This document shows positions 1 through 20,480 of a stretch of 36,744 nucleotides of DNA, in pieces. The stretch is from the NCBI GenBank assembly GCA_937961665.1, contig CALGMO010000015.1, positions 1 through 36,744 of the forward strand, in the 5' to 3' direction. Position numbers and translations under genes: made by a program. Below the pieces are notes generated by a model that made no database searches, was not told the origin of the DNA, and worked only from the letters and a program-made list of their open reading frames with translations. Numbering within the stretch: position 1 is the stretch's first letter; every line of letters begins with the position of its first letter. The stretch comes from an uncultured Fimbriimonadaceae bacterium (GTDB lineage: Bacteria > Armatimonadota > Fimbriimonadia > Fimbriimonadales > Fimbriimonadaceae).

Positions 1-11
1 CGGGGCCACGG

Positions 12-41: not shown

Positions 42-53
42 TCCTCGTCCCGC

Positions 54-129
<76 letters not shown>

Positions 130-859: not shown

Positions 860-890
860 TTGGCACCGAGCGGTTCGGGTCGGGCATACT
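860..890 (+). promoter_or_regulatory. Possible purEK promoter
   Basis: TTGGCA at 860-865 and CATACT at 885-890 resemble -35 and -10 boxes, though the 19-base spacing is slightly long. The -10 ends 24 bases before the purE ATG, leaving a short leader with GGGGG about nine bases before the start. No purine riboswitch fold is visible in so short a leader. Confidence 0.4.
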
Positions 891-914
891 TGCCCATCAC
901 GGGGGTGTGCGGAC

Positions 915-3344: not shown

Positions 3345-3373
3345 TTGAGGAAGCAAATCGGAAAAACCATAAT
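3345..3373 (+). promoter_or_regulatory. Probable promoter of the lipoprotein gene
   Basis: TTGAGG at 3345-3350 and CATAAT at 3368-3373 are exactly 17 bases apart. A strong Shine-Dalgarno AAGGAGG follows at 3378-3384. The region is also noticeably AT-rich compared with its surroundings. Confidence 0.5.
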
Positions 3374-3395
3374 AGGCAAGGAGGCAAATTTGAGG

Positions 3396-4160: not shown

Positions 4161-4210
4161 GGGCGAGACCCGAGGGTCAATCGCCTTGGGTCCGCGCGCC
4201 AACGGGGCTT

Positions 4211-4254
4211 GGCCGGCTCGGCCGGATGAAACGGCAGAGCCGGCCGAATCGTTT
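4211..4254 (+). terminator. Probable rho-independent terminator after the lipoprotein gene
   Basis: GGCCGGCTC (4211-4219) pairs perfectly with GAGCCGGCC (4237-4245) across a 17-base loop and is followed by GAATCGTTTT. The T-run is short, but the hairpin sits 50 bases after a stop codon and before an independent ribosome binding site. Confidence 0.5.
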
Positions 4255-4325
4255 TCCATGAGAGTCCGGCCGGACCGACCGGCACGCGGCGGGCGACGTC
4301 GGACGCACTCAAAGGAGGATCGAAA

Positions 4326-5747
4326 ATGCTCGCAGGAATCTGGATGGGGGTGGCGCTGGCGCAGGCGGGCGCCTCGGCCCCGGAGATCACGGTGTACAAC
4401 CAAGGCTTCGCCTTGGTGAAGGAGGTGCGGAGGCTGGAGCTCAAGCCGGGCCGCCAGCTGATCCGCGTGGAAGACGTCGCGGCGCTGATCGAGCCGAACA
4501 GCGTGGGCGTGCGCAAGCTGCAGGGGGCGGGGGACTTCCTCGTGCTGGAGCAGAACTACCAGTACGACCTGATCAGTCCGTTGGCGATCCTGAACAAGGC
4601 GGTGGGGCAGAAGGTGCGCTTCATCCGTCTGTTGCAGAACGGGCAGAAGGACGTGGTCACCGGCACGCTCCTCAGCTCCCCGACGGCCGTGGTGAACCCT
4701 GCCGGCGAGGGGGCACACACCACCTACAACGGCCTGGTGATCCGCACCGACGACGGGCGGATCCTGCTCAACCCCACGGGCGAGATCGAGGTGATGCAGA
4801 TCCCCGAGGGGATGATCAGCAAGCCGACCCTCGTGTGGGACGTGGAGGCCCAGGCCGGCGCCGTCGAGGCCGAGCTGAGCTACCTGACCCGCGGCATGAC
4901 CTGGTCGGCCGACTACGTTCTGACCCTGGACGGCTCGGGCAAGGCCGGCCTGATCGGCTGGGTGACCCTGAACAACTCGAGCGGCGCCACCTTCAAGGAC
5001 GCCAGGCTCAAGCTGCTCGCCGGCGACGTGCAGCGCGTCGAGACCCAGCGCATGGGCCTCCGCGGAGGAGTAGGCGGAGCGATGCCGATGATGGCCAAGG
5101 CCGATCAGTTCCAAGAGGAGTCGCTCTTCGAGTACCACCTGTACACGCTGCAGCGGCCCGCGACGGTGCGCAACAAGGAGACCAAGCAGATCCAGCTCTT
5201 GGCGGGCGACGGCGTGCCGGTGGAGAAGAAGCTGATCGTGGACGCGATGCGGGACTTCGGCCGCTACTTCCCCAGCGAGGGCGAGTTCGGCACCGGGAAC
5301 CTGAAGCCGCAGGTCCGTGTGGAGTTCGTCAACTCGGAGAAGAACGGTCTGGGAATGCCTCTGCCCAAGGGCAACGTCAAGGTGTACCAGCGAGACTCGA
5401 GCGGGTCGGTCCAGATGCTCGGGGAGGACGCCATCGACCACACGCCGAAGGACGAGCGGATCTCGCTGGTCGTGGGGCGGTCGTTCGACGTGGTCGCGGA
5501 GCGCCGCCGCACGAACTTCCGCCGCCTCGCGCCCACGACCGTGGAGGAGTCGTTCGAGATCGAGGTGCGGAACCGCAAGTCGACGCCCGAGACCGTGCAC
5601 GTCTACGAGCGCCGCTACGGCGACTGGAGGATCACCCAGAAGTCCCAGGACTTCGTGAAGCTGGATGCGAACACGATTGACTTCGTGGTGCAGCTGAAGG
5701 CCGGCGAATCGAAGAAGGTCAGCTACACGGTGATCACGTCCTGGTGA
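4326..5747 (+). CDS. DUF4139 domain-containing protein
   Basis: A 473-aa protein whose whole mature length resembles the DUF4139 family. The N-terminus (ITVYNQGFALVKEVRRLELKPG) matches the opening strand pattern of these proteins. The middle contains the typical LTYLTRGMTWSADY-like segment (here SYLTRGMTWSADYV near 180-193), and the end is rich in beta strands (VHVYERRYGDWRI, VQLKAGESKKVSYTV). A short hydrophobic N-terminus ending in ALAQAGASA suggests export. AAAGGAGG at 4311-4318, seven bases before the ATG, fixes the start. The family has no established biochemical role that I can name with confidence; many members are secreted or outer-surface proteins. No partner gene is obvious next to it. 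Confidence 0.85.
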   Translation: MLAGIWMGVALAQAGASAPEITVYNQGFALVKEVRRLELKPGRQLIRVEDVAALIEPNSVGVRKLQGAGDFLVLEQNYQYDLISPLAILNKAVGQKVRFIRLLQNGQKDVVTGTLLSSPTAVVNPAGEGAHTTYNGLVIRTDDGRILLNPTGEIEVMQIPEGMISKPTLVWDVEAQAGAVEAELSYLTRGMTWSADYVLTLDGSGKAGLIGWVTLNNSSGATFKDARLKLLAGDVQRVETQRMGLRGGVGGAMPMMAKADQFQEESLFEYHLYTLQRPATVRNKETKQIQLLAGDGVPVEKKLIVDAMRDFGRYFPSEGEFGTGNLKPQVRVEFVNSEKNGLGMPLPKGNVKVYQRDSSGSVQMLGEDAIDHTPKDERISLVVGRSFDVVAERRRTNFRRLAPTTVEESFEIEVRNRKSTPETVHVYERRYGDWRITQKSQDFVKLDANTIDFVVQLKAGESKKVSYTVITSW

Positions 5748-5791
5748 CTGGGGCTTGAATCCTAAGCACCCTCGGGAAGCTCTTGCTTGGT

Positions 5792-6148
5792 ATGAGTCAA
5801 GCTGTGAAGCCATTGAAAACGCAGGACTTTGAGACGGAGGTCCTGAACAACTCGAAACCCGTCTTGCTGGACTTCTGGGCGCCGTGGTGCGGCCCCTGCC
5901 GCATGGCCAAGCCGATCCTGGAGCAGGCCGCGGCCACGTTCGGCGACACGGTGGACGTGCGCACCGTGAACGTGGACGAGGAGCCCGCGCTGGCTAGGGC
6001 GTTCGGCGTGCAGAGCATCCCGACCATGGTCCTGATGAAGGACGGCAAGCCGATCGACGCCTGGGTGGGCGTGCAACCGTACGATGCGCTGGTGAAGCGC
6101 GTGGAGGCCAAGGCCGGTCTGCCCCCACGCGTTCTCCGGCTCAACTGA
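5792..6148 (+). CDS. Thioredoxin
   Basis: A 118-aa cytoplasmic thiol-disulfide oxidoreductase of the thioredoxin family. The active site WCGPC lies at residues 32-36 inside DFWAPWCGPCRM. The cis-proline motif SIPTMVLMKDGK and the VNVDEEP strand typical of thioredoxins are also present. There is no signal peptide. The ATG at 5792 is preferred; an in-frame TTG at 5783 would add three residues. No strong ribosome binding site is visible. A GC-rich hairpin follows the stop codon. Confidence 0.95.
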   Translation: MSQAVKPLKTQDFETEVLNNSKPVLLDFWAPWCGPCRMAKPILEQAAATFGDTVDVRTVNVDEEPALARAFGVQSIPTMVLMKDGKPIDAWVGVQPYDALVKRVEAKAGLPPRVLRLN

Positions 6149-6170
6149 ACTCGCTCCTCCGGAGAAGGCT

Positions 6171-6202
6171 GGAGGCTCCCAGGGCGACGCCCGGGGGCCT
6201 CC
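6171..6202 (+). terminator. GC-rich hairpin after thioredoxin, possible terminator
   Basis: GGAGGCTCCC (6171-6180) pairs with GGGGGCCTCC (6193-6202) over ten positions with one G-U pair, around a 12-base loop that could pair further. There is no T-tract, so termination is plausible rather than certain. Confidence 0.4.
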
Positions 6203-6289
6203 TCGCTCGCATGGACGCGGCCTTGGGAGAACTCGGCGCCCCCCCGGCATCCTGCGAGCCCGCCGGGCATCGTGGGGGCTCCTCTTCGG

Positions 6290-6295
6290 TACGAT
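6290..6295 (+). promoter_or_regulatory. -10 element TACGAT just before a start codon
   Basis: TACGAT ends five bases before the ATG at 6301, so transcription would begin at or next to the start codon. No ribosome binding site is present, so the mRNA would be leaderless. The same layout is seen before 21104. Confidence 0.45.
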
Positions 6296-6300
6296 GGGCC

Positions 6301-7887
6301 ATGCCGAGGATCGAGGCCGGCCCGGTCCGCCTTTGCACGTACGAAACCTGGGAACTCACCGCCGAGCTGGCGTCGGCGCCTGCGGACCCTTTCGAGCCGG
6401 ACCCGGCCTTCCTCGAGTGGACCACCCCCGCGGGCGCAACGAGAAGGGCCGGAGCGTTCTGCGACTCGGAGGATGGACGGGTTTTCCGAGCCAGGATTCT
6501 GCCGACGGACCCCGGCCCGCACCGATGGCGGCTCCGCAGCAGGGAAGGGCGCCTGCTGGCGGAGGGCGGCTTCGAGGCCGAACCGGGCGGGCATCCGGGC
6601 ATGGTGAGGGCGGAGGGCTGGCGGTTCGTGTGGTCGTCGTCGGGTCGGCCGTTCTTCTTCAACTCCACCACCGCCTACCTGATGGCCGGGCTGAGCGACG
6701 CGAGGATCGACCAGGCGCTGGAGAGACTGGCCGGGTACCGGATCGACCGCATCCGAGTGGCGCTGTGCCCCTCGAGGCAGATCGACGGCGGGCGGTGGAA
6801 CGAGCCACAGGTGAAAGAGCGGGACGACTTCACCTTCCGCTATGGCCCTTGGCCCGCCCGGAATCCGGCCGACTCCCTCCACCCCTCCTACGACCCGAGC
6901 CGATTCGATCTGGGCCACTGGAGGAAGTTCGAACGGCTCCTGCGCCGCGCCGACGAGCTGGGCATCGCCGTGCAGGCAGTGTTCTTCGTGGACGGGCAGG
7001 AGGCGCAGAACTACCCTTTCGATCGCGATCGGGCCGGCGACGACCCGCTCGAGGAACGGTACTTCCGGTACGCGGTCGACAGGCTGGCGGCTTTTCCGAA
7101 TGTGGAGTGGTGCGTGACGAACGAGTGGGCCCTGTTCCGCCCCGACGAGTGGGTTGAGGCCGTTGGTGCGCGCCTCGCGGCCTACGACCCTTACGGGCAT
7201 CTTCTGAGCGTTCACGGGCACGGCCACTTTCCGTTCCGGTCCAGCCCTTGGTGCACGCACGCCCTGTACCAGTGCTGGGACGAGCACGGCTCGCATCCGT
7301 TCCTGCTGCGGGCCCAACGGGACCAGGAGGCTGCGGAACAGCCCAAGCCGCAAGTGAACGAGGAGTTCGGGTACGAGGACCACTACGCCGCGTGGGGAGA
7401 AGGCAGGCGGAGCCCAGCCAGGGATGCGGACTCGCGAATCCGGCTGGCTTGGGAGATGCGGATGGCCGGAGCCTTCTGCACCACGGGGGAGTCGGCGGCC
7501 GACGGCAGAGGGGGCTGGATCAACGGCCTGCGCGACGGAGACAGCCGCCTCCTGCAGGGCCACCTCTGGATGCGCGCGTTCTTCGAGACGATGGATTGGT
7601 CGGCCATGGCGCCGGCCGAGGCATCGGGCCACGCCTACGCCCTGGCGAACCCACGTGGGGAAGTCGCCGTGTACGGCTTCGGGGAGGGGTGGACCGCCGT
7701 GCCCCTGCCGCATGCCGGACCCTGGGACGTGGATCGCTTCAGCCCGTGGACGGGCGAGTGGGCGGCGGTGCACCGGGGGGCTGCGCTCGAGCGGGACCCG
7801 TGGACCGGCCCCGGGGCGGTGCTTCCGACGCTTCACGCCGGCCGCCCGGTGGCATACCGCATCCGGCCCTCGGAGGGAACCGGCTGA
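6301..7887 (+). CDS. DUF5060/DUF4038 family putative glycoside hydrolase
   Basis: A 528-aa protein with an N-terminal beta-sandwich of the DUF5060 type (about residues 5-95, including FRARILPTDPGPHRWRL), followed by a DUF4038-like (beta/alpha)8 barrel. In the barrel, PFFFNSTTAYLM stands in for the usual opening strand, and ALERLAGYRIDRIRVALCP, VEWCVTNEW and VNEEFGYEDHY provide candidate catalytic acidic residues. Families of this type act on plant or microbial glycans; the substrate here cannot be read from sequence. No signal peptide is seen, so it may be cytoplasmic. The ATG at 6301 is chosen because a -10 element directly precedes it and the domain begins there; the open frame extends to 6211 with no support. 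Confidence 0.8.
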   Translation: MPRIEAGPVRLCTYETWELTAELASAPADPFEPDPAFLEWTTPAGATRRAGAFCDSEDGRVFRARILPTDPGPHRWRLRSREGRLLAEGGFEAEPGGHPGMVRAEGWRFVWSSSGRPFFFNSTTAYLMAGLSDARIDQALERLAGYRIDRIRVALCPSRQIDGGRWNEPQVKERDDFTFRYGPWPARNPADSLHPSYDPSRFDLGHWRKFERLLRRADELGIAVQAVFFVDGQEAQNYPFDRDRAGDDPLEERYFRYAVDRLAAFPNVEWCVTNEWALFRPDEWVEAVGARLAAYDPYGHLLSVHGHGHFPFRSSPWCTHALYQCWDEHGSHPFLLRAQRDQEAAEQPKPQVNEEFGYEDHYAAWGEGRRSPARDADSRIRLAWEMRMAGAFCTTGESAADGRGGWINGLRDGDSRLLQGHLWMRAFFETMDWSAMAPAEASGHAYALANPRGEVAVYGFGEGWTAVPLPHAGPWDVDRFSPWTGEWAAVHRGAALERDPWTGPGAVLPTLHAGRPVAYRIRPSEGTG

Positions 7888-7928
7888 TCGGGAAGGGGTC
7901 CCGCCCAGCGGTCCAACGGCGGGGCCGG

Positions 7929-7934
7929 TAGACT
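7929..7934 (+). promoter_or_regulatory. -10 element TAGACT before the desaturase gene
   Basis: TAGACT matches the TAnnnT pattern seen before several genes here and is the only -10-like site in the 91-base gap after the preceding stop codon. Transcription would start near 7941. Confidence 0.35.
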
Positions 7935-7978
7935 CTCATGGATGGTCCGTGTCGGAGCGCTCGGACCTTGAAACGAAC

Positions 7979-8998
7979 ATGACCGAGATCGCCTGGCAGC
8001 AGCTGCTCAAGCCCTATCGCACCCCCGACGCGCGCAAGGCTTGGACGCAGGTTTTCAACACTATCCCCCCGTTCCTCTTGCTCTGGGTTGCGACCCTGTA
8101 CTGCGCCTCGCGGGAGTGGTGGCTTCCGATGGTAGCGGTCGGCTTGGCCGCGGCCGGATTCATGATCCGCACGTTCATCCTGTTCCACGACGCGGGGCAC
8201 GGCTCGTTCTTTCCCTCCAAGCGTGCGAACGAGATCTTCGGCTTCTGGGCGGGCGCGTTGGCCTTCACGCCGAGCCATCAGTGGTGGCACAGCCACGCGA
8301 TCCACCACGGCTCCGCGGGAAACCTCGACCGGCGGGGCACCGGCGACGTGCTGACCCTCACGGTGCGCGAGTACCTGGCCTTGCCCTGGTGGAAGAAGGT
8401 CGGCTACCGGATCATGCGGAACCCGCTGTTCCTGTTCACGGTCGGGCCGCTGTTCGTGTTCGGCATCGCCTACCGCTTTCCGACGCGCTCCGACGGGCCG
8501 AAGGAGCGCAGGAGCGTTCTGCTCACCGACCTGTTCCTGATCGCTTGGGCGGTGGGGTGGAGCCTGCTGTTCGGCTGGAAGGCGTACCTGATCGCCCAGC
8601 TCCTCGTGCTGCTGGTTGCCACGGCCTCCGGCGTGTGGCTGTTCTACGTGCAGCACAACTTCCCGGGAACCTACTGGGAGCACAAGGACCGCTGGAGCTA
8701 CTACGACGCCGCGCTGGATGGCAGCTCGTTCTACAAGCTTCCGAAATGGCTCGACTGGATCACGGGGCACATCGGCTACCACCACATCCACCACCTGAGC
8801 AGCCGGATCCCGAACTACAACCTGGTGCGGTGCTACGAGGAGCTGCCCGAGCTGCACGTGAAGCCGATGACCCTGCGCGACAGCCTGAAGTGCCTGAGCA
8901 TCCGCCTGTGGGACGAGGATACCGGCGAGATGGTCGGCTGGTCGGCTCTGAAGCGCCACCGTTCGCCGAGCTCCGGCGCGTCCTCCCAGCGGGCCTGA
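7979..8998 (+). CDS. Membrane fatty acid desaturase
   Basis: A 339-aa integral-membrane di-iron desaturase that inserts double bonds into acyl chains of membrane lipids. All three histidine boxes are present: HDAGH at residues 70-74, HSHAIHH at 104-110, and HIGYHHIHH at 264-272. Two pairs of hydrophobic segments lie around residues 25-66 and 175-222, the family's usual topology. The sequence is closest in feel to acyl-lipid omega-6/delta-12 desaturases, but regiospecificity is an inference. The start is uncertain: a GTG at 7949 in the same frame would add ten residues and lies closer to the -10 element, and neither has a good ribosome binding site. Electron donors (ferredoxin or similar) are not encoded nearby. 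Confidence 0.92.
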   Translation: MTEIAWQQLLKPYRTPDARKAWTQVFNTIPPFLLLWVATLYCASREWWLPMVAVGLAAAGFMIRTFILFHDAGHGSFFPSKRANEIFGFWAGALAFTPSHQWWHSHAIHHGSAGNLDRRGTGDVLTLTVREYLALPWWKKVGYRIMRNPLFLFTVGPLFVFGIAYRFPTRSDGPKERRSVLLTDLFLIAWAVGWSLLFGWKAYLIAQLLVLLVATASGVWLFYVQHNFPGTYWEHKDRWSYYDAALDGSSFYKLPKWLDWITGHIGYHHIHHLSSRIPNYNLVRCYEELPELHVKPMTLRDSLKCLSIRLWDEDTGEMVGWSALKRHRSPSSGASSQRA

Positions 8999-9513
8999 GG
9001 CGCGCTGGCTCCGAGGCCCCGGCAGGTTCCGGGGGTCCGCACCCCGAGTGCGCCGGGCAGGCGCGAAGACATGCCCTGCTCGGATGCGTGTAGATTGCGC
9101 GCCCCCAGAGAGCAGGGGAGGCGCGGCTGGATCCCTTGTGGAGGTTCCGTTGCGTACCGAGCGCGCTGGTCGGGCTCTCCCGCGTCGCCCGAGCATGCTC
9201 CCCGCACGCGGAAGACCGTGCTCTCCGATGATGAAAGTGCCCGACTCTCGCGTGCAGAGCGGCGCACTTTCATCGCACGACTCGGGCACTTTCATCGCAC
9301 AACCCGTGCAGTCTCACGCGAGGACTCAGGCCGATTCGAGCGATGCCCTATGGCCCGGCGACGACTCGGTCCGCTCCTCGGATCTCCGGCCTCGCCCCCA
9401 GGTGACCGACGGCGCCCTGCGATGGTGCCCGACGAGGGCTCGCGAGGCTCAGCGTGCCGATCGTACTTCTTACTCCTGGCCTTCGAGGGTGCCCCAAAGG
9501 ACCGGCGTTGGGC
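8999..9513. other. Spacer upstream of the defence-like operon
   Basis: About 515 bases without a supportable gene, separating ordinary metabolic genes from the large operon. It contains the inverted/direct repeat at 9230-9296 (listed separately) and a TAGATT hexamer near 9090 with no plausible gene behind it. No integrase, tRNA or transposase remnant is visible at this edge. Confidence 0.5.
9230..9296. repeat. Inverted and direct repeats of a GATGAAAGTGC motif
   Basis: The left arm GATGAAAGTGCCCGA (9230-9244) is perfectly complementary to TCGGGCACTTTCATC (9282-9296). A third, inverted copy of the 11-base core lies between them at 9264-9274 and forms a 22-base-period direct repeat with the right arm. 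The three copies sit about 290 bases upstream of the defence-like operon. Confidence 0.85.
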
Positions 9514-9519
9514 TAGAAT
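9514..9519 (+). promoter_or_regulatory. -10 element TAGAAT of the defence-like operon
   Basis: TAGAAT is the best -10 match in the upstream region. A GTG that is in frame with gene 1 lies seven bases after its end (9526), and the preferred ATG lies at 9586. No -35 box is evident. It is the only candidate promoter seen for the three genes, which overlap or nearly touch. Confidence 0.45.
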
Positions 9520-9585
9520 GGTTCCGTGACGTTCTCGGAAGGCCGTGACTCCGGCCGATTCCGAGGCGGAAAGAGGCTTTCAGGA

Positions 9586-12500
9586 ATGGCGTGCACAGTC
9601 GTTCGATGCCACGAGTCGGCGAACCACAGCGAGGAGACGGCGCTTCGGCGCGTTGAGGCTGTCCTGAATGGCAGGCCGGGTGAGGAATGGGTCGTTCTCG
9701 CCAACCTGATGTTCTCACCTTCGCCAGACCGCCCGTCCGACGAACTCGACCTCGTGTGTATCGGGACAAGGGGCGTCGTAGCAATCGAGGTGAAGCATTG
9801 GCAGATCGTGACGGACGAGGATCGGCGTCGGCTGGAACGGGAGGCAGAGCGGATCAGCATGAAGGCCAGAAGGCTGTCCGGCTCGCTCAAGGCCAAGCTG
9901 CGTCAGTCCGGTCTGTTCGTTAGCGCAGGGATCTTGCTCACCAAGGCCTATTCCCGGCACGGTGAGGCAATCAACGGAGTGCCGATCCACGATGTCTCCT
10001 CCATTTCTCTACTCTTCGACAGCCTCTCAGGCCAACAGCTCTCTGGCGAGGCGGTTCGCTTCTCCGCTGAAACACTCCATGCCCAGGCTGCTATCCGTCT
10101 GCGAGAGAAGATACGCCGTCTTGCCGGCTACGTTAATTTGGAGCACCAGAGCAGCACGCAGGATGGTTTCCATCGAGTTTTCCGTGGCGTCGAGGCGAGC
10201 ACCAGGGAGCCGGTCGTTCTGCACCTGTACGATCTGTCCGTTGGGGCTGACGGCGATCTAGGCAACTTGGCGCGGCGGGAGTGCGAAACCCTGCAGCGGC
10301 TGCAGAAGAGTTCGCACGTTCCGTACATCCGAGAGACGATTCGGGACGTGCCGGGCTACGAGGGGGAGATGCTGTACTTCGTCCTGATGGATCCCTGCGC
10401 ACCCACGGTGGCTAAGCGGAAACAGGACAAGGCTTGGTCATGGCTGGAGCGGCTCTCTTACGCGACGAAGGCTCTGGAAGCACTCCAAGAGCTGTACGAA
10501 CTGGGGGAGTCCAGGCGAAGCCGGGAGCGTTTGGTGCTGCGCACCATATCCCCGAACACGCTTCTCGTTGCCAACGACAACCTGCCGGTCTTCAGTGATC
10601 TTCAGCTCTCGCGCCTGCCAGGCCAAGAGACGATCGTGCGCGGATCTGAGACCGTTCCTCAGGACTCATGGATCGCTCCTGAGATTCGAACCCGCGGCTG
10701 GCAAGTGGCGTCACAGGCATCCGACATCTTCGCACTCTGCACCGTCCTCAAGGATGTCTTCAACGTGGATTTCGATGGGCGCTCCGCTGACGACTGCGAC
10801 CAGGTGGTCCGCATCTTGGACAAGGGCTGCAGGGAGGAGCCTGGGGAGAGAGCGTTGGACCCGAGAGCGCTGGCGGAAGAGCTGAAGAGCGTGGGCGCCT
10901 CCGCGGAAACCACCGCGACAGCGGACAAACCTGAAGCGAGGAACCCCTCCGTGGAGTTCTGGAGCGAGGGAACGACCGTCCGTTTCAAGAACCGGCGATT
11001 CCGCGTCGTTTCGAGACTGGGAAGCGGAGGAGTTGGCCACACGTTCAAGGTGGAGAGCCTGGAGGAGGGCTCCGATCGAACGAACGGTACGTTTGTGGCC
11101 AAAGTCTTCCGAGAAGGTGTGGACGTTGAGCGCGTCCTGAAAGCGTACCGGCGGGTCCAGAGCGCATCGTCGGATGCCGGCTTGGCTACCGTCCACGAGG
11201 TCGCCGATGCGGCGGAGCCGAACGGAATCGGCGCTCTGATGGAGTGGGTGGAGGGGCCAACCCTGGACAGTCTGTCCGGTCGGCTCGGCGAGCAACTGGA
11301 TACGGACCTTGATCAGACCCTGGAGGCGCTGCTGAGAGGATGGATCGAGGACTGCTGCAGGGCCTTGGTGAGGCTCCACTCCCAAGGACTGGTGCACGGG
11401 GACATCAGCCCGCGCAACCTCATCTACCACAGGGAACGGCTTCGCATCATCGACTACGACTTGGTCACGTGGGAAGGCGAGGCTGCGGTGGGATCAGGGT
11501 GCCCGCGCTACGCCTCTCCGGAATCCTCGCTGAAGGAAGGGCTCTTTCCGAGGGACGACTTGTACGCGCTCGCAGCGTCGCTGTTCGAAGCCGTCTTCAG
11601 CGTCCAGCCGTTCCCCGCGTGTGAAACGGGTCTCGACAAGTCTCGGGGCCTTGACTGGACTAAGGAGCGGGCGGCCGTCTTAGGCGCCCTTGCAGAGTTC
11701 TTCAGTAGGGCAACCGATCCCGATCCGAACCTGCGGTTCCAGAGCGCCAGGGAGGCCCTCGCCTGGCTGAGGGGTGAGGAACCCATCATGGAGGAGCGGA
11801 CCAAGCAGGTTGTGCCTTGGCTGACGAATTTGCTGACGGTCTATCCCGGCTCGGTGCACGGCAACGTCGAGACGCGCGGTCTTGACAGCGAGTTCGCCGA
11901 GAAGACCTACGTGCCCACAGAGCTGGAGGATGCGCTGCGCGAAGATCTTCAACGCGGCGGGTCGCTCTTGGTGATCCTCTGCGGAAACGCCGGGGACGGC
12001 AAGACGGCGCTGTTGCAGTCGGTCGCGAAGACCCTCGGTGGCACGAACGTTCGGTCCGAGGATCGCGTGTGGACGTTCCAATCCGCGGATGGGCGCAGCA
12101 TCCTCATCAACTTCGACGGGGCGGCGGCCTGGAAAGAAAAAAGCTCAGACGAGCTGCTGGACGAGCTGTTCGAGCCGTTTCTTCATGGCGAACCGGAGGA
12201 CAGAAGAGTCCACCTTCTGGCCATCAACGACGGTCGCCTGCTGGAGTGGCTGCACAACTACGAGAGGGCCAAGGGCCGGACACAGCTTACGGAGACCCTG
12301 TTGAACTGCCTCGCCGCCGACGACGATCCGAGACCTGCACCAAGCCACATTCAGTTCATCAGCCTCAACCACAGGTCGCTGGTCGGCGGTGTGGATGAAA
12401 GGCGGCAAACGACCCAGGACTGGTTCGTCGATCAGCTCGTCTGCAGCATGCTCGGCGGGGACGATGCGCCGCAGACTTGGGAGCCCTGCAAGACCTGCAC

Positions 12501-13578
12501 GGCATGGGGGAAATGTCCGGTTGGGCCCGTCGCGCACCGCCTGATCGCGTCGTACCAGGAGACCGAGGAGTCGCGGACGGAGGATGCCCGTCGCGGCAAG
12601 AGGATCCGCAAGCGGCTGACAGAGGCGCTGCAACTGGTGCACCAGAAGGGGGAGACCCACATCACGGTTCGAGAGTTGAGGGGCGCGCTCAGCTACATCC
12701 TGTTCGGAACCATGACGTGCGAGGAGGTGCACGAAGCCCCCTCGAAGAACCTGTGGCACTACTTCGAGCGTGCGTTCGATCCCGAGTCGCCGGACCGTCA
12801 GGGAGCTCTGCTGCGGGAGCTGACGCTACTGGATCCGGCCTTGGAGGCGCATCCGCTCTTGGACCGTTGGGTGGTGGGCAGATCCTCGCAGAGAATCGAC
12901 GGCGCGGGGCCCGCCTATCCTGGCCTGCCGCTGAGCGCTGCCCGTCGGCGCGCCTACTTCGAGTGGCTGCCCGAGGAGATCGAGAGGGTCACCGGTTGGG
13001 AAGAGGGTTTGGGTCTCGCCGGGGGCGAGCACCTGCGGTCGTTCCACGAGGCGTCGTTGCGGGATGCGGATCAAAACAAGGAGCTGTGCGGCAAGCTCTG
13101 CCGGGGCATCTCGAAGCTGGAGGAGTTGCCGGAGGCGGCTCTTCGACGGAAGGATCGGGTGCCGCTGCGGCTGATCGGACGCAACCCCACCGAGACGATC
13201 TTCTGGATCGAGAAGAAGCTCGAGCGGTTCCGATTGGAACCGGAGTGGCCGCCAGCGTTGCGGCTGGGCCTGCCCGTCCTGCCGAACCGCCTCAGGCTGG
13301 TGTACCGGTACGCGGACGGCGGCGAAGAGATTCTAAGCATGGGTTATGGGCTGTTCCACACACTGCTCGCAATGAGTGAGGGCGAACAGCTGGGCGAGCG
13401 CCTCGCGGACGACCTGTACGCGAACCTGAAGCTGTTCGTCCAGCGACTATCGATGGAAGACGAGCGAGAGTGGTATGCGTGGCATCCGCGCGGGCAGGAC
13501 GAGGTCCTCCGGCTGGCGGTTCGCCAGAAGAACGGTAGACAGGTGATCTGCTGCGAAGATTTGGAGGAAGAAGCGTGA
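9586..13578 (+). CDS. NERD nuclease-pseudokinase-Ser/Thr kinase-ATPase protein (PglW/MAD6-like)
   Basis: A 1330-aa multidomain protein (numbering from ATG 9586). Residues about 5-160 are a NERD nuclease-related domain with the active-site pattern D55...E68-V-K70. About 190-430 resembles a kinase fold but lacks HRD and DFG equivalents (LRTISPNTLL, SDLQLSRL), so it is probably a pseudokinase. About 470-740 is an active-looking Ser/Thr kinase: Gly loop 479-484, K506, HGD at 604-606 with N611, and D623 in place of DFG. A P-loop ATPase follows: GNAGDGKT at 800-807, an AIND strand with D882, and a Cys cluster C968/C971/C977 that may bind metal. The order recalls PglW of BREX type 2 and the MAD6 kinase of MADS. 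AAAGAGG at 9570-9576 supports this start; a GTG at 9526 is the alternative. The stop overlaps the next start (GTGA). Confidence 0.85.
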   Translation: MACTVVRCHESANHSEETALRRVEAVLNGRPGEEWVVLANLMFSPSPDRPSDELDLVCIGTRGVVAIEVKHWQIVTDEDRRRLEREAERISMKARRLSGSLKAKLRQSGLFVSAGILLTKAYSRHGEAINGVPIHDVSSISLLFDSLSGQQLSGEAVRFSAETLHAQAAIRLREKIRRLAGYVNLEHQSSTQDGFHRVFRGVEASTREPVVLHLYDLSVGADGDLGNLARRECETLQRLQKSSHVPYIRETIRDVPGYEGEMLYFVLMDPCAPTVAKRKQDKAWSWLERLSYATKALEALQELYELGESRRSRERLVLRTISPNTLLVANDNLPVFSDLQLSRLPGQETIVRGSETVPQDSWIAPEIRTRGWQVASQASDIFALCTVLKDVFNVDFDGRSADDCDQVVRILDKGCREEPGERALDPRALAEELKSVGASAETTATADKPEARNPSVEFWSEGTTVRFKNRRFRVVSRLGSGGVGHTFKVESLEEGSDRTNGTFVAKVFREGVDVERVLKAYRRVQSASSDAGLATVHEVADAAEPNGIGALMEWVEGPTLDSLSGRLGEQLDTDLDQTLEALLRGWIEDCCRALVRLHSQGLVHGDISPRNLIYHRERLRIIDYDLVTWEGEAAVGSGCPRYASPESSLKEGLFPRDDLYALAASLFEAVFSVQPFPACETGLDKSRGLDWTKERAAVLGALAEFFSRATDPDPNLRFQSAREALAWLRGEEPIMEERTKQVVPWLTNLLTVYPGSVHGNVETRGLDSEFAEKTYVPTELEDALREDLQRGGSLLVILCGNAGDGKTALLQSVAKTLGGTNVRSEDRVWTFQSADGRSILINFDGAAAWKEKSSDELLDELFEPFLHGEPEDRRVHLLAINDGRLLEWLHNYERAKGRTQLTETLLNCLAADDDPRPAPSHIQFISLNHRSLVGGVDERRQTTQDWFVDQLVCSMLGGDDAPQTWEPCKTCTAWGKCPVGPVAHRLIASYQETEESRTEDARRGKRIRKRLTEALQLVHQKGETHITVRELRGALSYILFGTMTCEEVHEAPSKNLWHYFERAFDPESPDRQGALLRELTLLDPALEAHPLLDRWVVGRSSQRIDGAGPAYPGLPLSAARRRAYFEWLPEEIERVTGWEEGLGLAGGEHLRSFHEASLRDADQNKELCGKLCRGISKLEELPEAALRRKDRVPLRLIGRNPTETIFWIEKKLERFRLEPEWPPALRLGLPVLPNRLRLVYRYADGGEEILSMGYGLFHTLLAMSEGEQLGERLADDLYANLKLFVQRLSMEDEREWYAWHPRGQDEVLRLAVRQKNGRQVICCEDLEEEA

Positions 13579-15404
13579 GCAGAGGCAAGCAGGAAAGGGC
13601 TATTGCCCGGGTGTTCGGAGAGGCGTATTCGACAGCTCTTGGTGGCAATACTCTCCACTATTACGACCCGAATCTTTTTGACGAGCTTTGGACGGCTACC
13701 ACGGACTTGGTTCTGCCGCTGACACCTGGCGACTTTAGCGTCGGTTCGGTTTTGCCTGCGGTCATGTACATGATCCGCCGCGGGCATCGACGGGGCAAGG
13801 GTCGATTCCATGAGACATATGGAGCCTCAAACGGCTTGACAAACCAGGTAACAGTGGCTTCGGTGGCTAGGAAACTCGTCCAATGGCACGCACTGTTTTC
13901 GGGATTCTCAGATGAGATTAGGTTGGAGATACTAGGTGATCTTCTGTTGGCAACTGCTCTTGAAACCAAGAATCGGAAAGGTAGGCATGATATTGAAGTC
14001 CTGCGTGTGTATCCGTCTCACTACTTCGCCTCCTGGATAGATCTTCCACAGAAAGTAGGGAATCTACGCTTGGTCCCAGAGCTTATTGCCAACCTTCTCT
14101 CTGTTCAGGGCAAAGAGGTAAATCCCGCATCTAAAGAATTAAGCACTAGTGGTGGGGTGTCCCAGTCAAGCCTCTTAATAAAGGTGTTCGCAAAGGGCAC
14201 GGTTTTTTCGAACAACCCGAGCGAGCTTCATGGCGATAAATTTGATGAGCAAGAGGCATTGGCAGTTGATGAGCTCCTTATGGTTCGCTTAGGTGCGGGC
14301 TGTAGTTCTGCTCCAGAGAAATCCAAGGATACCACGATCGGAGCGTCAATTCCAAGAAACAAGCCGCTAAGCTCAAGGGCAAGTGAGATCTTTCGTAGCG
14401 ATTTGGTTAACTTTCTAGAAGCTTGTGGAGAGGCAGTTCCTAGGAGGATTCTAACTGGAATGCTGGAAGCACTCATAGGTATGGGGCTGTGGCACACCTC
14501 GTTGACATCGCTGAGGTGTTCAGTGGAGTGGGAGAAGACGGGCACGGTGCCGCATGAGAATGACCAGATTCCAGTTATGGTCTTCGTGGACGCATCCAAT
14601 GGTGCCATTGCGGATCTTAGGAATGAGTCGGAGCGTTCTTTTTCAGATATTCTATCTCTGTTGGACGATGCTATCGCGGCTATGGCGTGTATTAGAGTGC
14701 TACAGGAGAACGTGAAGTACGACCAAACGTTTCAATTACTGTTTGGAGAATCCGATGGGAATGCGGAGAGGCTCAATAAGTTGTACCGCATACGGAAACA
14801 AGATGTGCCTGGGGCTGAAATGGCAATAGGTATTATTTCTAGATATGTGGCAGCTCTCGGAGAGAAACTTAATAAGGAAGATCTGTGCCCTCCAGCTCAG
14901 CAGGTGTTGCTCAAAAACACAGGAAGCGATCCTGTTCGTGCATTAGGGGAAGCGTTGGTCGAACTAAGAGGTGGAGGGGATCTTCGTTCGAGGTTTCTGA
15001 AGCTGTTGGACTCTGCTGGCATGTCATTGGAGCCTCATGGGCTTGTCCGAAAACGTAGCGTCAAGCGTAAGATGTCAGACGGTTCTCGCCGCCAGACTGA
15101 GGCACGGTCGATTGCTCTTTCAGATGAACTTCTTGAGGCGCTAGTGCATACGCACTTGTTCGAAAGAGAGTTTCCGGTCTCATACCAGGAATTCCTCACC
15201 TTGTTGCGGGACCGGTACGGCCTGTGTGTCGATCAGGCCCCGCCAGGGCATGGAATACCTCAGGAGCTGTTGGTCCGTAACCGGAACATCTTGGAACGTC
15301 GGTTGCGCGATTTGGGGCTTCTCAGGGGTGTCAATGACTCCGAGTCGATGAAGCTCTTGCGATCCCGGTACAAGTACGCAACCACAGGCAAACAAAGAGT
15401 TTGA
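13575..15404 (+). CDS. Defence-operon middle protein of unknown function (MAD7/DptG position)
   Basis: A 609-aa protein with no named domain I can assign. It starts with GTG overlapping the upstream stop codon. The N-terminus contains a basic stretch (YMIRRGHRRGKGR near 65-77). The last 90 residues (FPVSYQEFLTLLRDRYGL, then a Leu/Arg-rich helix ending in LRDLGLL) look like a winged-helix, DNA-binding-type module. By position between a NERD-kinase and a HerA-like ATPase it corresponds to MAD7 in MADS or loosely to DptG in Dnd restriction; this rests on context. Base composition is odd: sampled 60-base lines give 23, 27 and 28 G+C at 14821, 14641 and 14101, against 43 at 12781 and 42 at 17101 in the neighbouring genes. 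GC rises again from about 15180. Confidence 0.75.
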   Translation: MSRGKQERAIARVFGEAYSTALGGNTLHYYDPNLFDELWTATTDLVLPLTPGDFSVGSVLPAVMYMIRRGHRRGKGRFHETYGASNGLTNQVTVASVARKLVQWHALFSGFSDEIRLEILGDLLLATALETKNRKGRHDIEVLRVYPSHYFASWIDLPQKVGNLRLVPELIANLLSVQGKEVNPASKELSTSGGVSQSSLLIKVFAKGTVFSNNPSELHGDKFDEQEALAVDELLMVRLGAGCSSAPEKSKDTTIGASIPRNKPLSSRASEIFRSDLVNFLEACGEAVPRRILTGMLEALIGMGLWHTSLTSLRCSVEWEKTGTVPHENDQIPVMVFVDASNGAIADLRNESERSFSDILSLLDDAIAAMACIRVLQENVKYDQTFQLLFGESDGNAERLNKLYRIRKQDVPGAEMAIGIISRYVAALGEKLNKEDLCPPAQQVLLKNTGSDPVRALGEALVELRGGGDLRSRFLKLLDSAGMSLEPHGLVRKRSVKRKMSDGSRRQTEARSIALSDELLEALVHTHLFEREFPVSYQEFLTLLRDRYGLCVDQAPPGHGIPQELLVRNRNILERRLRDLGLLRGVNDSESMKLLRSRYKYATTGKQRV

Positions 15405-15416
15405 ACAGCTGTAACC

Positions 15417-18400
15417 ATGGCACAAGACGTGAAGCGTGTGGATTGGATTCGAGCAGCTTTGCAGAAGCTGGCTGGGAGGCCCCACGCTGGGGACCTCGCC
15501 TTTACCCGAGCGTTCGACCGCGAGACGATTGAAACGGTGCTGTCTCAAGGAGATTCGCTGGGGGGATGGGAGCTGCGAGGAGTTGGCCATTCAAGTGCAA
15601 ACGGATGGATCACCGCTGACCGAGCAGTTGATCTGCGTGAGGCAAAGGGGACGGCGACGCTCCTGCTAGTGGATCGGGACTGGTCGGGCTCTGGGATGGA
15701 CGGCGTCTACAGCTCAGCCAGAGAAATTACGGAGAGCAAGCTGCTGGCCGCCGCCGTGCAGATTGCCTTGGCATCCCTTGAATCGGGGCTGACGGCTTTC
15801 GCCAAGGAAGCGTTCCGCCACGCGTCGCGCGTCGGCGGGCGGGGCCGAGCCGTATATGACAGCGAGAAGCTCGAATTTCTTGCGGCTCTAGCCGAGAATT
15901 CACAGGGGGTCGGTGAGGCGTTGCCCCATCTTCAACTGTGGCCGGTCAGCGGGGATCTGGAGCGGGCTCGGGCCTTGCTGGACGTCTCGGGGGTCATGGT
16001 GGAGCGTCTCTTATTGTCCCCCGCCACCGCCCAGACAGCCGAAGCGCGCATCGCCGGTCTCCAGCTTCAGGAGGCGGAAGACAGGACCGTTCGGGAACTA
16101 GCCGAGCAGCTGCGGAAGGGCGCCGCCTTGCCCGCCAAGACGACTCTGCTCCGGGTTGCGCGAGACTCCCGCCTTTGGCTGGGTAACCTTCGGCCGCTGT
16201 TCCTCGAGAAGAGAGTGCAACGGATCAAGGTCGTTTCGTGGCGCAAGAACGGGAAGCTCTCCAAGTGGAGCGGCTTGGTAGAATCAGGACCGGACAGCCT
16301 GCCAGAGTACCGGGTGGACCCCAAGAATCCGAAGAACAAACTCGAGGTGTGGTGGACGGTCCATCCAGGGAATCTGCCTCGCGGCTCCGCCTCCTTCAAC
16401 GTTCGTGTGTTGGCCGGGGACGAAGAGCTCGCTTCCCAGACCGTGAGCCTCAACGGTCGGAAGGAGCAGAAAGCGTCCTTCGGTCCGGAGGACTTTTCGG
16501 AACTGGAAGAGCACGGGCGGTGGCAGGCCAGAGTCGAGGTCACGGTGGTCGGCACGGACGAAGTCGCTCCCGAGACAACGGAGGACTTTATCGTCTGCTT
16601 CGGTACGGTTCCAATTGACGAAAAGGTTTTTGCGGGAACGGTATATCGTTGCCCGGTGGAGGGCGCCGTCGAACTCGACACACGCGAGGAGGCCGAGGCT
16701 CTCGCCGAGGCTGCTGCCAAAGGCGAGCATGGGAATCCAGACAACAAAGGCTTCCTGAGCTACCGCCCGAGGGACAAGAAAGGCGAGATTAGGAAGTCGT
16801 TCCGAGTGGAGCGGCCGCCGTTGCTCGCCAAGATCGAGAAAGACTGGTCCGAGCGGAACGACGCGCCGATCGGCCGATGGGTGGTGCGGGCCCGGCCGGA
16901 CGGATCGCTCGTGCAGGGACCGGACTACGAGCCCGTACCAACCGACGGGTTGGGCGACGCGGAACAGAAGCTGAGGGAGGCCACTGAGGCGCTCCGGAAG
17001 AGGCTCTCCGGGACGGGAGGGATGCTGTCCCAGATCTACGTTCACAAGGGGACCGGAGCGTCCGTCATCGGAGAGTACCTGAACGCGTGGATGTCTGCGT
17101 TGGAGAGCGGCCCTGCCCGCTTGGCGCTGGCCAACACCGTCGAGGTCCAGTCGCCGTCTGGGGAGACCATCGGCCTGATCGTGCTGCCGTTCCATCCGAT
17201 TCGGATGGCTTGGCAAGCTGCTTTCGACACGCTGGCGATCCATCTGCGCTGGGAGCAGGGCCTGAAGGCCGATCGGGTGCGGAAGGCGTTGTCCAACCTC
17301 GACGGGGCGCACTTCCCGTTCCTCCTGCCCGGTCTGAAAGCCGGCGAGGCTTTCGTCTTCGGCGACTGCATCGGCATGGCGGGAGTGGCGATGGTTTCCA
17401 CCAACGACCCGGAACCGAAGGCTAGCCTCTCGATGCTCGCCGCGGCCTACTCGGGCGACTCCGACCGCTTGAGGCCCGAGATCAGCATCGAGAGCGGGGA
17501 GGCTTTGGCGCGCGTTCTCCGTGCATACCTTGACACTCATCCGGGAAGCTCCCAGCTGATGGTGCATGCGCTCCGGCCGGGCGACGGCGCCACGGTGGTT
17601 CGGGCGTTGGGCAAGGCACTCAAGGCCGAAGCCGAAGACACGGAAGAGTCGGAGGACGGAGACGAGCGACAACGGGATCGCAGAGTCGCCGTCCGACTGA
17701 ACCTGTTTCCCGCACGGCGCGAGTCGATGGTGACGGGCCGGCATCTGACCAAAATCGTCCAGCGACGACGCACCGGGGCGCCGAACCCCCACGAGGAAGA
17801 TGCCTGGTGCCTGGAGTCCGTCGACTTCGGTGGCGGACGGATGCTGCCGAGGTTGCGTTGGGCCAAGCGCGACGAGGGTGCGCCTCGCGAGCCCGGACAT
17901 CTGTCCATCGCGTTCGACTGCTTCTCTTCCAGGGTGGCGTGCGAGGAGCCGACCGGCGAGCTGGCGCCCCTCCTGGCGTTTGGGCTGATCGCGAACGTTC
18001 AGCGGGTGTTCGCCGTCGAGGATGATCAGCCGATGTGGCGGACGACGATTCCCGCCGGCCTGGAGGGCCCCAAGCTCCAGGATCGGATCGTAACCGAGCG
18101 CTTGGTGCGAGCCCAGGCGGCCGTCTTGAAGTCCGTCGCTCGGCACCTTGGCTGCGACCAAGGTTGGCCCGTTCTGAAGACGCTCCTCAGTCCTGAGAAC
18201 CGGCAGCTGCTGGACGGCCTGCACGACCGGTCCGATTGGGTCGTGACGATGGACCGGAACATCGGTGTGGAGTACTTCGATTCTCCCAAGCATCTGCCGG
18301 ACGTCTTCGACGCCTACGTGATCGACGCTGTGCCGGAGCGGGACGATCTCGGTTGTCTGCAGCTGATCACGTCGACTTCGCACTTCGACGAGGTCCGGGG

Positions 18401-20480
18401 ACTGTTGGACTCGACGCTCCAGCAGATGGGACTGAGCGCATCGGAGAGGAACTGCAAGTTCCTGCTCGACGAGCTCAAGGCGCTCAGCGGGCGCTTGGCC
18501 CTTCGGATGGCCGGCGCCGCTGCGCAGGAAAATGGGGAGACCGTCGGGGCAGAGATGGTGGCCTTGGCGGCGGTGCACGCCCGATCCCGTTGCCAGCCAG
18601 AAGGGGTCCAGAGTTGGCCGGACTTGAAGAGGGGTTTCTTTGTTCCACTGGACGACGTTCGAGACCTCCTTGGGTCCCACGGCGACAAGGGGAAGGACGG
18701 CGAGAACGAGGGTAAGTCCCGAGCGGATCTGTTGTACGTGGGGCTCGGCTCGCGCGACCGACTGGTGTTTCGGTTCGTGGAGGTGAAGTATCGTCGGCAC
18801 CTGAGGACGGTGCGGAGCGACGAGCTAGCCTCCCGAATCGCGGAGCAGCTGAACGGCTCCCGGTCGGACTGGGAGAATTGGTATGCCAGCCACAAGTCCT
18901 GCAGCGAGCCGGAACGGGTGTTGAGGGCAGCCAGGCTCGCTCGGGTCCTGCGGTTCTACGCAGACAAGGCCTACCGACACCATCTCGGCGAGGACCCCTA
19001 CAGGAAGCTGGTGCGAGGAATCAGCCAGCTGGCAAAGAGCCCGTCGGACCTGAGTAGCGAGGTGGACGAGAAGGAAGACATCGGCATCGTCTTCTGCCCC
19101 GAACACCGGGACAGTGAGATCGAGACCCTTGGGAGTTCGAACGGCCATGCGATCCTGTTGTTCGGCCCGGACTGCCTGCCGGACCGGGCCGGGGAGAACC
19201 CTCCCGAGACGCAGGATGACGTCGAGCCCGCGCCGGCTAACGAGGAAGAGAAGGAAAGCCCGCCGCACAACTGCGACGGGGAAGGAGCGTCGGAGCAGGT
19301 AAGCGTCGGCTCCGGGCTGATCGGTGCTTCAGACTGCGGCAGCCACGAGTTGCCCAAGGGCGAGTCGGAACATGGCAAGGAACCGGTCTCGTCGGGCGAG
19401 ATCACCAAGCCGGTCGTCGGGCCGGTCGCGGTCCTCCTAGGCACAACGGACAGCGGGCAGGATGTCTCGTGGACGGTCGCCATCAACGGCAACCCCCACC
19501 TGCTGATTGTAGGTCAGCCGGGGATGGGAAAAACCACGGCTTTGGAGAACATCTGCCTCCAGCTTTGGCGCGGCGGCGTAGCGCCCATCGTCTTCTCCTA
19601 CCACTCGGACTTGGACGAGCATCTACTAAGCCTCCTAAAGGGCTGTACCACGCATGATTGCTTCAGCCTCGGCTTCAACCCGCTTCGGGTGCCGAGCGTG
19701 AGCCGCTTCGCGCACACCGACTCGGCCGGTCACATTCGCGACATCTTCGCCGCGATCTTCAGGGACCTCGGAGAGGTCCAGCTCGCCGCGTTGCGGGAAG
19801 CCGTCCTCGAGACGTACACAAAGTTGGGATGGGGAGACGGCGAAGAGCATCCGGTACCGCCGTTCTCGGCTTTTCTGGAGTCTATGAAGGCCACGAAGAG
19901 GAACGGATCCCGCGACCACGGGAGGGAGAATCTCCTTCTTCGCCTGAGGGAGCTGGAGGACTACAACTTCTTCGACGACTGCGAGGACTCGATCGGCAGC
20001 CTGCTCGAGGGAGGTGCACCCCGCCTCATCCGCATCCATACCGTGCAATCGGATATGGTGCAACGAGCTTACGCCAGCTTCATGCTCTTCCGGGTGTATC
20101 AGGAAATGTTCCTTAGGGGAACCCAAAGTCGGATCACCCACGCGGTGGTGTTCGATGAGGCCCATCGGGCGAGCAAGCTCAACCTGCTCCCAAGGATGGC
20201 GAAGGAGTGCCGCAAGTTCGGCATTGCCCTGATCGTGGCATCTCAAGAGGCGCGGGACTTCGACGACAGCCTGTTCTCGGCTGTGTCCAACTACATGGCG
20301 CTCCGGGCTGTGGACGCCGACGCGAAGGCCATGGCTAAGAAGATGGCGCCCAGCGGCCGAGAGCGGAGTCTCGCCGACACACTGATGAACCTGGAGAAGC
20401 ACCGTGCGGTGCTTCGAACGGGAGAGATGCCCAGGCCGAAGACTGTGAAACTCTTGCCCCCACCCGAAGGCTGCAACTAG
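15417..20480 (+). CDS. HerA-like ATPase with internal PD-(D/E)XK-type nuclease motif (MAD8/DptH-like)
   Basis: A 1687-aa protein starting 12 bases after the preceding stop. The C-terminal third is a HerA/FtsK-type ATPase: Walker A GQPGMGKTT at 1366-1374, Walker B VVFDEAH with D1580 and E1581, and sensor ASQ at 1608-1610. Upstream, D1104 followed by E1122-V-K1124 in strand-like sequence (FRFVEVKYR) fits a PD-(D/E)XK nuclease active site. A beta-rich region lies about 295-400. An acidic, low-complexity linker (about 1263-1330) separates nuclease and ATPase. The N-terminal LLLVDRDWSGSGMDGVYSSAREI segment resembles the opening of DptH/MAD8-type proteins, which have similar length. I infer a DNA-translocating effector that cleaves invading DNA with gene 1 in control. 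GC is host-like throughout. Confidence 0.85.
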   Translation: MAQDVKRVDWIRAALQKLAGRPHAGDLAFTRAFDRETIETVLSQGDSLGGWELRGVGHSSANGWITADRAVDLREAKGTATLLLVDRDWSGSGMDGVYSSAREITESKLLAAAVQIALASLESGLTAFAKEAFRHASRVGGRGRAVYDSEKLEFLAALAENSQGVGEALPHLQLWPVSGDLERARALLDVSGVMVERLLLSPATAQTAEARIAGLQLQEAEDRTVRELAEQLRKGAALPAKTTLLRVARDSRLWLGNLRPLFLEKRVQRIKVVSWRKNGKLSKWSGLVESGPDSLPEYRVDPKNPKNKLEVWWTVHPGNLPRGSASFNVRVLAGDEELASQTVSLNGRKEQKASFGPEDFSELEEHGRWQARVEVTVVGTDEVAPETTEDFIVCFGTVPIDEKVFAGTVYRCPVEGAVELDTREEAEALAEAAAKGEHGNPDNKGFLSYRPRDKKGEIRKSFRVERPPLLAKIEKDWSERNDAPIGRWVVRARPDGSLVQGPDYEPVPTDGLGDAEQKLREATEALRKRLSGTGGMLSQIYVHKGTGASVIGEYLNAWMSALESGPARLALANTVEVQSPSGETIGLIVLPFHPIRMAWQAAFDTLAIHLRWEQGLKADRVRKALSNLDGAHFPFLLPGLKAGEAFVFGDCIGMAGVAMVSTNDPEPKASLSMLAAAYSGDSDRLRPEISIESGEALARVLRAYLDTHPGSSQLMVHALRPGDGATVVRALGKALKAEAEDTEESEDGDERQRDRRVAVRLNLFPARRESMVTGRHLTKIVQRRRTGAPNPHEEDAWCLESVDFGGGRMLPRLRWAKRDEGAPREPGHLSIAFDCFSSRVACEEPTGELAPLLAFGLIANVQRVFAVEDDQPMWRTTIPAGLEGPKLQDRIVTERLVRAQAAVLKSVARHLGCDQGWPVLKTLLSPENRQLLDGLHDRSDWVVTMDRNIGVEYFDSPKHLPDVFDAYVIDAVPERDDLGCLQLITSTSHFDEVRGLLDSTLQQMGLSASERNCKFLLDELKALSGRLALRMAGAAAQENGETVGAEMVALAAVHARSRCQPEGVQSWPDLKRGFFVPLDDVRDLLGSHGDKGKDGENEGKSRADLLYVGLGSRDRLVFRFVEVKYRRHLRTVRSDELASRIAEQLNGSRSDWENWYASHKSCSEPERVLRAARLARVLRFYADKAYRHHLGEDPYRKLVRGISQLAKSPSDLSSEVDEKEDIGIVFCPEHRDSEIETLGSSNGHAILLFGPDCLPDRAGENPPETQDDVEPAPANEEEKESPPHNCDGEGASEQVSVGSGLIGASDCGSHELPKGESEHGKEPVSSGEITKPVVGPVAVLLGTTDSGQDVSWTVAINGNPHLLIVGQPGMGKTTALENICLQLWRGGVAPIVFSYHSDLDEHLLSLLKGCTTHDCFSLGFNPLRVPSVSRFAHTDSAGHIRDIFAAIFRDLGEVQLAALREAVLETYTKLGWGDGEEHPVPPFSAFLESMKATKRNGSRDHGRENLLLRLRELEDYNFFDDCEDSIGSLLEGGAPRLIRIHTVQSDMVQRAYASFMLFRVYQEMFLRGTQSRITHAVVFDEAHRASKLNLLPRMAKECRKFGIALIVASQEARDFDDSLFSAVSNYMALRAVDADAKAMAKKMAPSGRERSLADTLMNLEKHRAVLRTGEMPRPKTVKLLPPPEGCN

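Follow-up and report, generated by a model that had tools for sequence, protein, structure and literature searches.

The gene series MAD6-MAD7-MAD8 is said to be part of the methylation-associated defence system (MADS), reportedly described by Maestri and colleagues in 2024. Of the other related systems, a DndFGH module in which an N-terminal NERD domain, an inactive kinase and an active kinase are fused to DndF was described by Rakesh, Aravind and Krishnan (NAR 2024, PMC10853773), according to whom DndFGH is commonly decoupled from its modification module and may act as a stand-alone system; the same study found DndFGH in 1798 taxa but the full set of eight dnd genes in just 316. SspFGH has the same three-gene order and is toxic in unmarked E. 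coli (PMC8092258), and DptFGH is toxic after loss of its own modification genes (PMC12707154). The NERD, pseudokinase, kinase order of PglW from bacteriophage exclusion (BREX) type 2 is identical to that of a subset of DndF (PMC12839542). Here we analyse a three-gene operon in a 36,744-nucleotide stretch from an uncultured Fimbriimonadaceae bacterium (the window), which is an entire contig (C15) of an assembly of 2.88 Mb, 142 contigs and 95% completeness. Judged from its sequence, the operon fairly probably encodes a complete stand-alone DndFGH-type counter-invader system of a NERD-kinase subtype. Its architecture was already published in 2024, and the window is a further example of it, not a stripped MADS; new here are a survey of occurrence and a hint that NERD outlasts the DndH nuclease.

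An earlier note on this DNA, made from the letters alone, had described three co-directional open reading frames of 1330, 609 and 1687 residues joined by a GTGA overlap and a 12-base gap, and these are present as described, all on the forward strand. Gene 1 (DndF-type, 9586..13578) is predicted to comprise a NERD nuclease, a pseudokinase, a kinase and a P-loop DndF/SspF core with a CxxC...C insert; gene 2 (13575..15404, of MAD7/SspG type) begins with a GTG within the overlap, and gene 3 (DndH-type) occupies 15417..20480. The ATG at 9586 agrees with the N-termini of relatives, and an alternative GTG at 9526 would add 20 residues to give a 1350-residue form. Position 9514, the start coordinate given in the earlier note, is no start codon; it is the first base of a TAGAAT stretch resembling a -10 element. 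All three frames are conserved at full length, with ∼34–42% identity in distant phyla, far above chance. The catalytic residues of NERD, of the DndH nuclease (REase) and of one protein kinase are intact in the operon, which further encodes a pseudokinase and two P-loop ATPases.

The NERD, kinase and P-loop domains previously read in gene 1 were confirmed by Pfam (NERD PF08378, E = 3.4e-7; Pkinase, 5.9e-16), by PADLOC/NCBIfam profiles and by catalytic-site alignment. The NERD catalytic stretch, D-E-L-D ... E-V-K, lies at 9739..9795 (residues 72–90 of the 1350-residue form, with D75, E88 and K90). The MAD6 model NF047741 matches at 5.3e-43, the best stretch being residues 24–585 of the 1350-residue form, and is covered at positions 3–586 of 612, with 147.4 bits against a curated cut-off of 460. 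Residues 794–1063 match SspF (5.5e-23), and on these profiles the P-loop part is the predicted SspF/DndF core; the canonical DptF model TIGR03238 stayed below cut-off for gene 1 (E = 0.09). For residue counts, length filters passed 64 DndF and 56 DndH proteins, window included, mostly from a gene-2-seeded scan and with loci cut at contig ends dropped. The Walker A lysine is present in 64/64 DndF proteins, as is N901, which by our own mapping would be the published second-motif asparagine of DndF. Gene 1 thus has NERD, pseudokinase and kinase fused to a DndF core. The likeness to PglW raised in the earlier note is one of domain order more than of profile match: BREX type 2 PglW shares the NERD-pseudokinase-kinase order (PMC12839542), but PglW models match nothing beyond the kinase region and reach 34.8 bits against a cut-off of 990. 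Neither PglX nor PglZ was found among the flank proteins scanned.

Gene 2, which had been left as ‘unknown’, takes the DndG fold in its AlphaFold model (AF2; predicted local distance difference test (pLDDT) 89.1, predicted template modelling score (pTM) 0.91). With VIA-align, the model aligns with the DndG crystal structure 7exx at Z 15.9 over 407 residues, the next row having Z 5.0; plain Foldseek returned nothing at E < 0.001, DndG surfacing only with VIA-align, and a clade profile of gene 2 matched no PDB sequence. The MAD7 model NF047733 (6e-32) is covered at positions 12–529 of 529, with 111.4 bits against a curated cut-off of 410, and SspG (3e-10) matches at the end of gene 2. For each of the 52 gene-2 proteins compared, including the window's, MAD7 is the sole NCBIfam model matched at E ≤ 0.001, a DptG match being found in 0/52.

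Gene 3 matches DndH (5.2e-22) and mad8 (1.4e-15) in PADLOC, and the best PDB chain for its clade profile is DptH 7es4 (2.7e-20); the NCBIfam equivalogs DptG and DptH returned no row for the window's proteins. Residues ∼581–1030 (17157..18506) adopt a predicted methyltransferase fold, for which the top VIA-align rows (Z 12.1–8.8) are nearly all methyltransferase folds, mostly of small-molecule enzymes, with the DNA methyltransferase M.BseCI at Z 10.3 and lmo1582 at Z 10.8. The [NSD]PP[YFW] motif is absent from the window's gene 3 and occurs, anywhere in the chain, in 1/56 DndH proteins. The modelled fold and the missing catalytic motif identify this region as the putatively inactive methyltransferase domain of DndH. 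The ExK motif and HerA-type ATPase claimed in the earlier note are borne out by residue alignment and by the DptH match. The PD-(D/E)XK nuclease core lies at 18726..18788 (D1104 ... E1122-V-K1124, on two adjacent strands in the model), and the HerA/FtsK ATPase at 19449..20453 (Walker A K1372, Walker B D1580-E1581, sensor Q1610), of which K, D and E are invariant in 56/56 DndH proteins and Q is present in 55/56. For the SWI2/SNF2-type domain and the TRDs that belong to the N-terminal part of DndH in this subtype, the top Foldseek rows include a region of the human Brr2 helicase, at a TM of ∼0.1.

Taken together, the profile and structure searches against MADS, BREX and Dnd that the earlier note had proposed place the set in defence-type DndFGH, and the kinship with MAD6-7-8 and DptFGH that it had read from gene order stands (MAD6 and MAD7 matches, DptH 7es4, DndG fold). 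Housekeeping families were rejected, as such matches were confined to the kinase or ATPase stretches. Relative to MADS, genes 1 and 2 are matched nearly end to end by the MAD6 and MAD7 models, but below the curated cut-offs, and gene 1 has an added DndF core. SspFGH (PMC8092258) shares the gene order, and its SspF and SspG components match the core of gene 1 and the end of gene 2, respectively. The module in PMC10853773 has the same DndF domain order, zinc-chelating insert, DndG, and DndH with inactive methyltransferase, REase and HerA/FtsK; whereas the N-terminal domains are called occasional co-effectors there, uncut and undecayed copies of the clade studied here keep NERD and the kinase pair constantly.

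Scanning the gene-2 alignment against genome contigs and keeping the best 80 of 84 relatives gave 78 distinct loci, which carry 21 phylum labels by submitter's title, two being unlabelled. Gene order was examined in 79 loci (these 78 plus L020, L021, L023 and L026, minus the duplicates L086, L092 and L099). All three genes occur in 71/79, on one strand and in the order F-G-H in 71/71, with a median F-G overlap of 4 bases; the eight incomplete loci, mostly at contig ends, lack H (L046, L060, L098) or F (L066, L093, L102, L108, L109). The neighbour survey covered 468 proteins of at least 120 residues from 86 loci. Its most widespread family, a small gene near G and H, reaches only 5/86 loci, all proteobacterial and three from Accumulibacter. 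Clusters of methyltransferase type reach at most 3/86 loci, and no modification gene recurs more widely. A methyltransferase-like motif is present in 19/468 neighbours, and the six that were scanned all match DNA methyltransferase families; plasmid annotation names further methyltransferases in L020 and L021. These neighbours belong to different families and lie at different distances and on either strand, as one would expect in defence islands. The survey of related genomes suggested in the earlier note therefore gives no common modification partner beside the three-gene set.

Two variations on this layout were seen. In five loci, gene 2 stands in tandem copies between F and H, with 44–94% identity among copies: two in L022 (1385–4989), L054 (8046–11752) and L076 (9929–13515), four in L088 (7906–15635) and three in L100 (8366–13870). 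If gene 2 reads DNA, such arrays may widen the target range. In proteobacterial loci, a two-gene insert separates G from H (L043:7136–8300, L051:6397–7396, L102:1712–2705); the longer protein of the L043 insert has matches to nucleotidyltransferase domains and a below-cut-off match to MarR, as might be expected of a toxin-antitoxin pair.

As the operon encodes two putative nucleases, we compared their catalytic residues across the clade. NERD D, E and K are intact in 63/63 DndF proteins covering these residues, whereas the D/E/K of the DndH nuclease is intact in 48/56, the window's among them, and altered in 8/56 (Fisher p 0.0018, relatedness ignored). The alterations require six or more changes on a quick tree of DndH from which the nuclease columns had been excluded. 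Among 45 loci with both proteins scored, NERD is intact and the DndH nuclease altered in seven and the reverse is found in none. The alignment is less certain for the altered nucleases of L076, L085 and L100, which sit on long branches, and in L062 the changes are all conservative; L023/L024 (one event), L054 and L082 are firmer. Kinase K/D/D is intact in 61/64, being altered in L023, L025 and L064; as gene 3 of L064 is also truncated, this copy may be decaying. In one family of the window's phylum, two genomes (L023:508–11262 and L024/L025) have changed residues in the kinase and in the DndH nuclease alike and keep NERD. Where the clade profile finds no NERD, the locus is truncated by a contig end or apparently decayed (L098, L104), or Pfam does find NERD (L030); in uncut, undecayed copies of the clade, NERD and the kinase pair are constant. 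NERD has been called a backup in print, and a backup role would predict the reverse of the pattern suggested by these alignments, which comes from few events, some of them on long branches. One may tentatively go further and read NERD as the indispensable executioner, restrained by the pseudokinase-kinase pair, with the DndH nuclease optional, the whole being a mark-free, kinase-gated DNA-cutting alarm and, in evolutionary terms, a bridge between DndFGH and the MAD6-7-8 arm of MADS; we regard this extension as possible, if doubtful. Two further NERD matches lie elsewhere in the window's genome (contigs C117 and C133).

In agreement with the earlier note, no self-marking gene was recognised in the contig. 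Among 18 flank open reading frames scanned with Pfam (some of them competing frames), no methyltransferase or known modification family was found, and PADLOC matched none of ten flank proteins at E ≤ 0.001; on these scans we rejected the presence of a recognisable modification gene in the window, and they likewise revealed none of MAD1-5, methyltransferase included, beside the set. SspFGH is coupled to SspBCD phosphorothioation (PMC8092258), whereas the window's genome, at 95% completeness, has 0 matches to a DndC-type gene, the SspBCD models not having been run. It also has no PF01555, PF00145 or PF02086 match. Across carrier genomes, DndC exceeds the cut-off in 8/50 (14/50 at E ≤ 0.001) and is absent from one further genome, that of L035. 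The nine DndC stretches from the eight carriers contain a DndH-type match in one case and a NERD-type F in none, and these DndC genes do not adjoin the operon.

The operon is embedded among housekeeping genes. Flank Pfam matches comprise AIR carboxylase, an ATP-grasp purine enzyme, DUF4139, an apiosidase-like protein, a fatty acid desaturase, a beta-lactamase-family protein, LacI, a prepilin-like protein, ABC transporter parts, GH30 and a dicarboxylate symporter; neither Pfam nor PADLOC matches a large flank protein of 1272 residues (30428–34246) at E ≤ 0.001. Third-position GC is 0.78, 0.53 and 0.79 in genes 1, 2 and 3, versus 0.86–0.94 in six neighbours, and gene 2 is without a match in the two remaining genomes of the genus (completeness 73% and 96%); the operon therefore looks horizontally acquired. 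Within the phylum, gene-2 relatives, some of them weak, occur in 10/291 genomes, the window's own included. An empty insertion site was not located: the desaturase homologue of congener G149 is on a 6.5 kb contig that matches 0/12 of the other window flank proteins, the right-flank beta-lactamase-family protein has no match in either congener, and the longest word common to both operon flanks is 11 bases. Some 0.2–0.3 kb upstream of the operon, at 9230..9307 (forward strand), two 22-nucleotide direct copies and 23-nucleotide inverted arms form a possible regulatory or terminator element, the 15-base core of which occurs twice in the window at up to two mismatches against 0.06 expected by chance. 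A tRNA-Lys(CTT) lies at 54–129, at the left end of the contig and 9 kb from the operon.

These features suggest how the system might work. The F, G and H proteins would form one complex, in which DNA would be held or scanned by gene 2 together with the N-terminal part and the methyltransferase-fold domain of gene 3, and the HerA ATPase would translocate along it. DndF would bind nucleotide, the pseudokinase-kinase pair would decide firing through phosphorylation, and NERD and the DndH nuclease would cut DNA. On sequence grounds, the three-gene set probably locates and cleaves invading DNA with no marking gene next to it. Since SspFGH harms E. coli that lacks the mark and DptFGH turns toxic once its modification genes are lost, an ungated FGH would be dangerous, and kinase gating might be a simple way for FGH to persist without a mark. 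As those relatives harm unmarked hosts and no common mark-making partner was found here, the rule separating self from non-self is most likely an infection signal (a nucleotide, a protein or a DNA state) instead of a DNA mark.

Several observations weigh against this proposal. The infection-signal gate is one that we infer, and the alignment of gene 2 with 7exx has a root-mean-square deviation of 6.1 at 12% identity. A same-strand methyltransferase adjoins the operon in L039 (21 bases upstream), L106 (192 upstream) and L021 (253 downstream), so a strict no-partner rule is weakened; an N6-methylase cluster recurs in three loci (L037, L055, L082), on the opposite strand. As only 34/86 loci have at least 2 kb of flank on both sides, partners may be missed. 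Most carrier genomes contain some DNA methyltransferase, with matches over cut-off for N6_Mtase in 46/50, N6_N4_Mtase in 48/50 and C5 methylase in 37/50. The window's genome itself has one PF02384 match, a DrmMI/type IIG-like methyltransferase open reading frame on contig C46 (positions 1–10912, L126), and a genome-wide absence of modification therefore cannot be claimed.

It is on such grounds that one might suppose a mark-dependent system, in which the self mark comes from an unlinked enzyme (that of C46 or another), as in MADS, Dnd and Ssp. The kinship with MAD6-7 and with SspFGH/DndFGH would suit this, as would the three adjoining same-strand methyltransferases and the methyltransferases of the carriers. 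We nevertheless consider it unlikely: methyltransferase clusters stand beside so few of the surveyed operons, DndC exceeds its cut-off in merely 8 of the 50 genomes, and the other methylase families sought in the window's genome gave no match. The C46 enzyme, moreover, is accompanied by a DpdE-like helicase (3.5e-217) and a DruE-like helicase, and its locus is apparently another defence or modification system. The earlier note had left a choice between self-marking supplied from elsewhere and a reduced system; the former is possible through the C46 enzyme, and a reduction from MADS is unsupported. A divergent or reduced MADS, i.e. MAD6-MAD7-MAD8 minus MAD1-5, would account for the near-complete coverage of the MAD6 and MAD7 models and for the exclusive MAD7 matches of the gene-2 proteins, but scores far under the cut-offs (147 versus 460 and 111 versus 410), the extra SspF/DndF core of gene 1 and a full-length DndH-type gene 3 against a PADLOC mad8 model of 314 positions make it improbable. 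The three genes also recur without a common partner, giving no sign of loss, although MAD1-5 were not searched in the related loci. Least probable of all is that the genes are decaying or silent acquisitions without function in this host. The low third-position GC and the lack of a gene-2 match in both congeners (one only 73% complete) would allow it, but none of the three frames is interrupted, and no catalytic residue among those checked is altered.

For the stand-alone DndFGH-type system that we favour, the literature searched, which did not extend to the MADS paper itself, contained no statement of a link between MADS and DndFGH; such a link may be published. Judging by the MAD6 and MAD7 matches, MADS and the DndFGH world seem to have a kinase arm in common. 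With DndFGH in 1798 taxa versus the full dnd set in 316, and with FGH modules that are toxic when unmarked, tolerance in unmarked carriers becomes a real question. The present clade, which is uniform, spread over many phyla and without a common partner, is well suited to asking how, in the absence of a mark, DndFGH distinguishes self from non-self, and the persistence of NERD over the REase makes the role of each nuclease directly testable.

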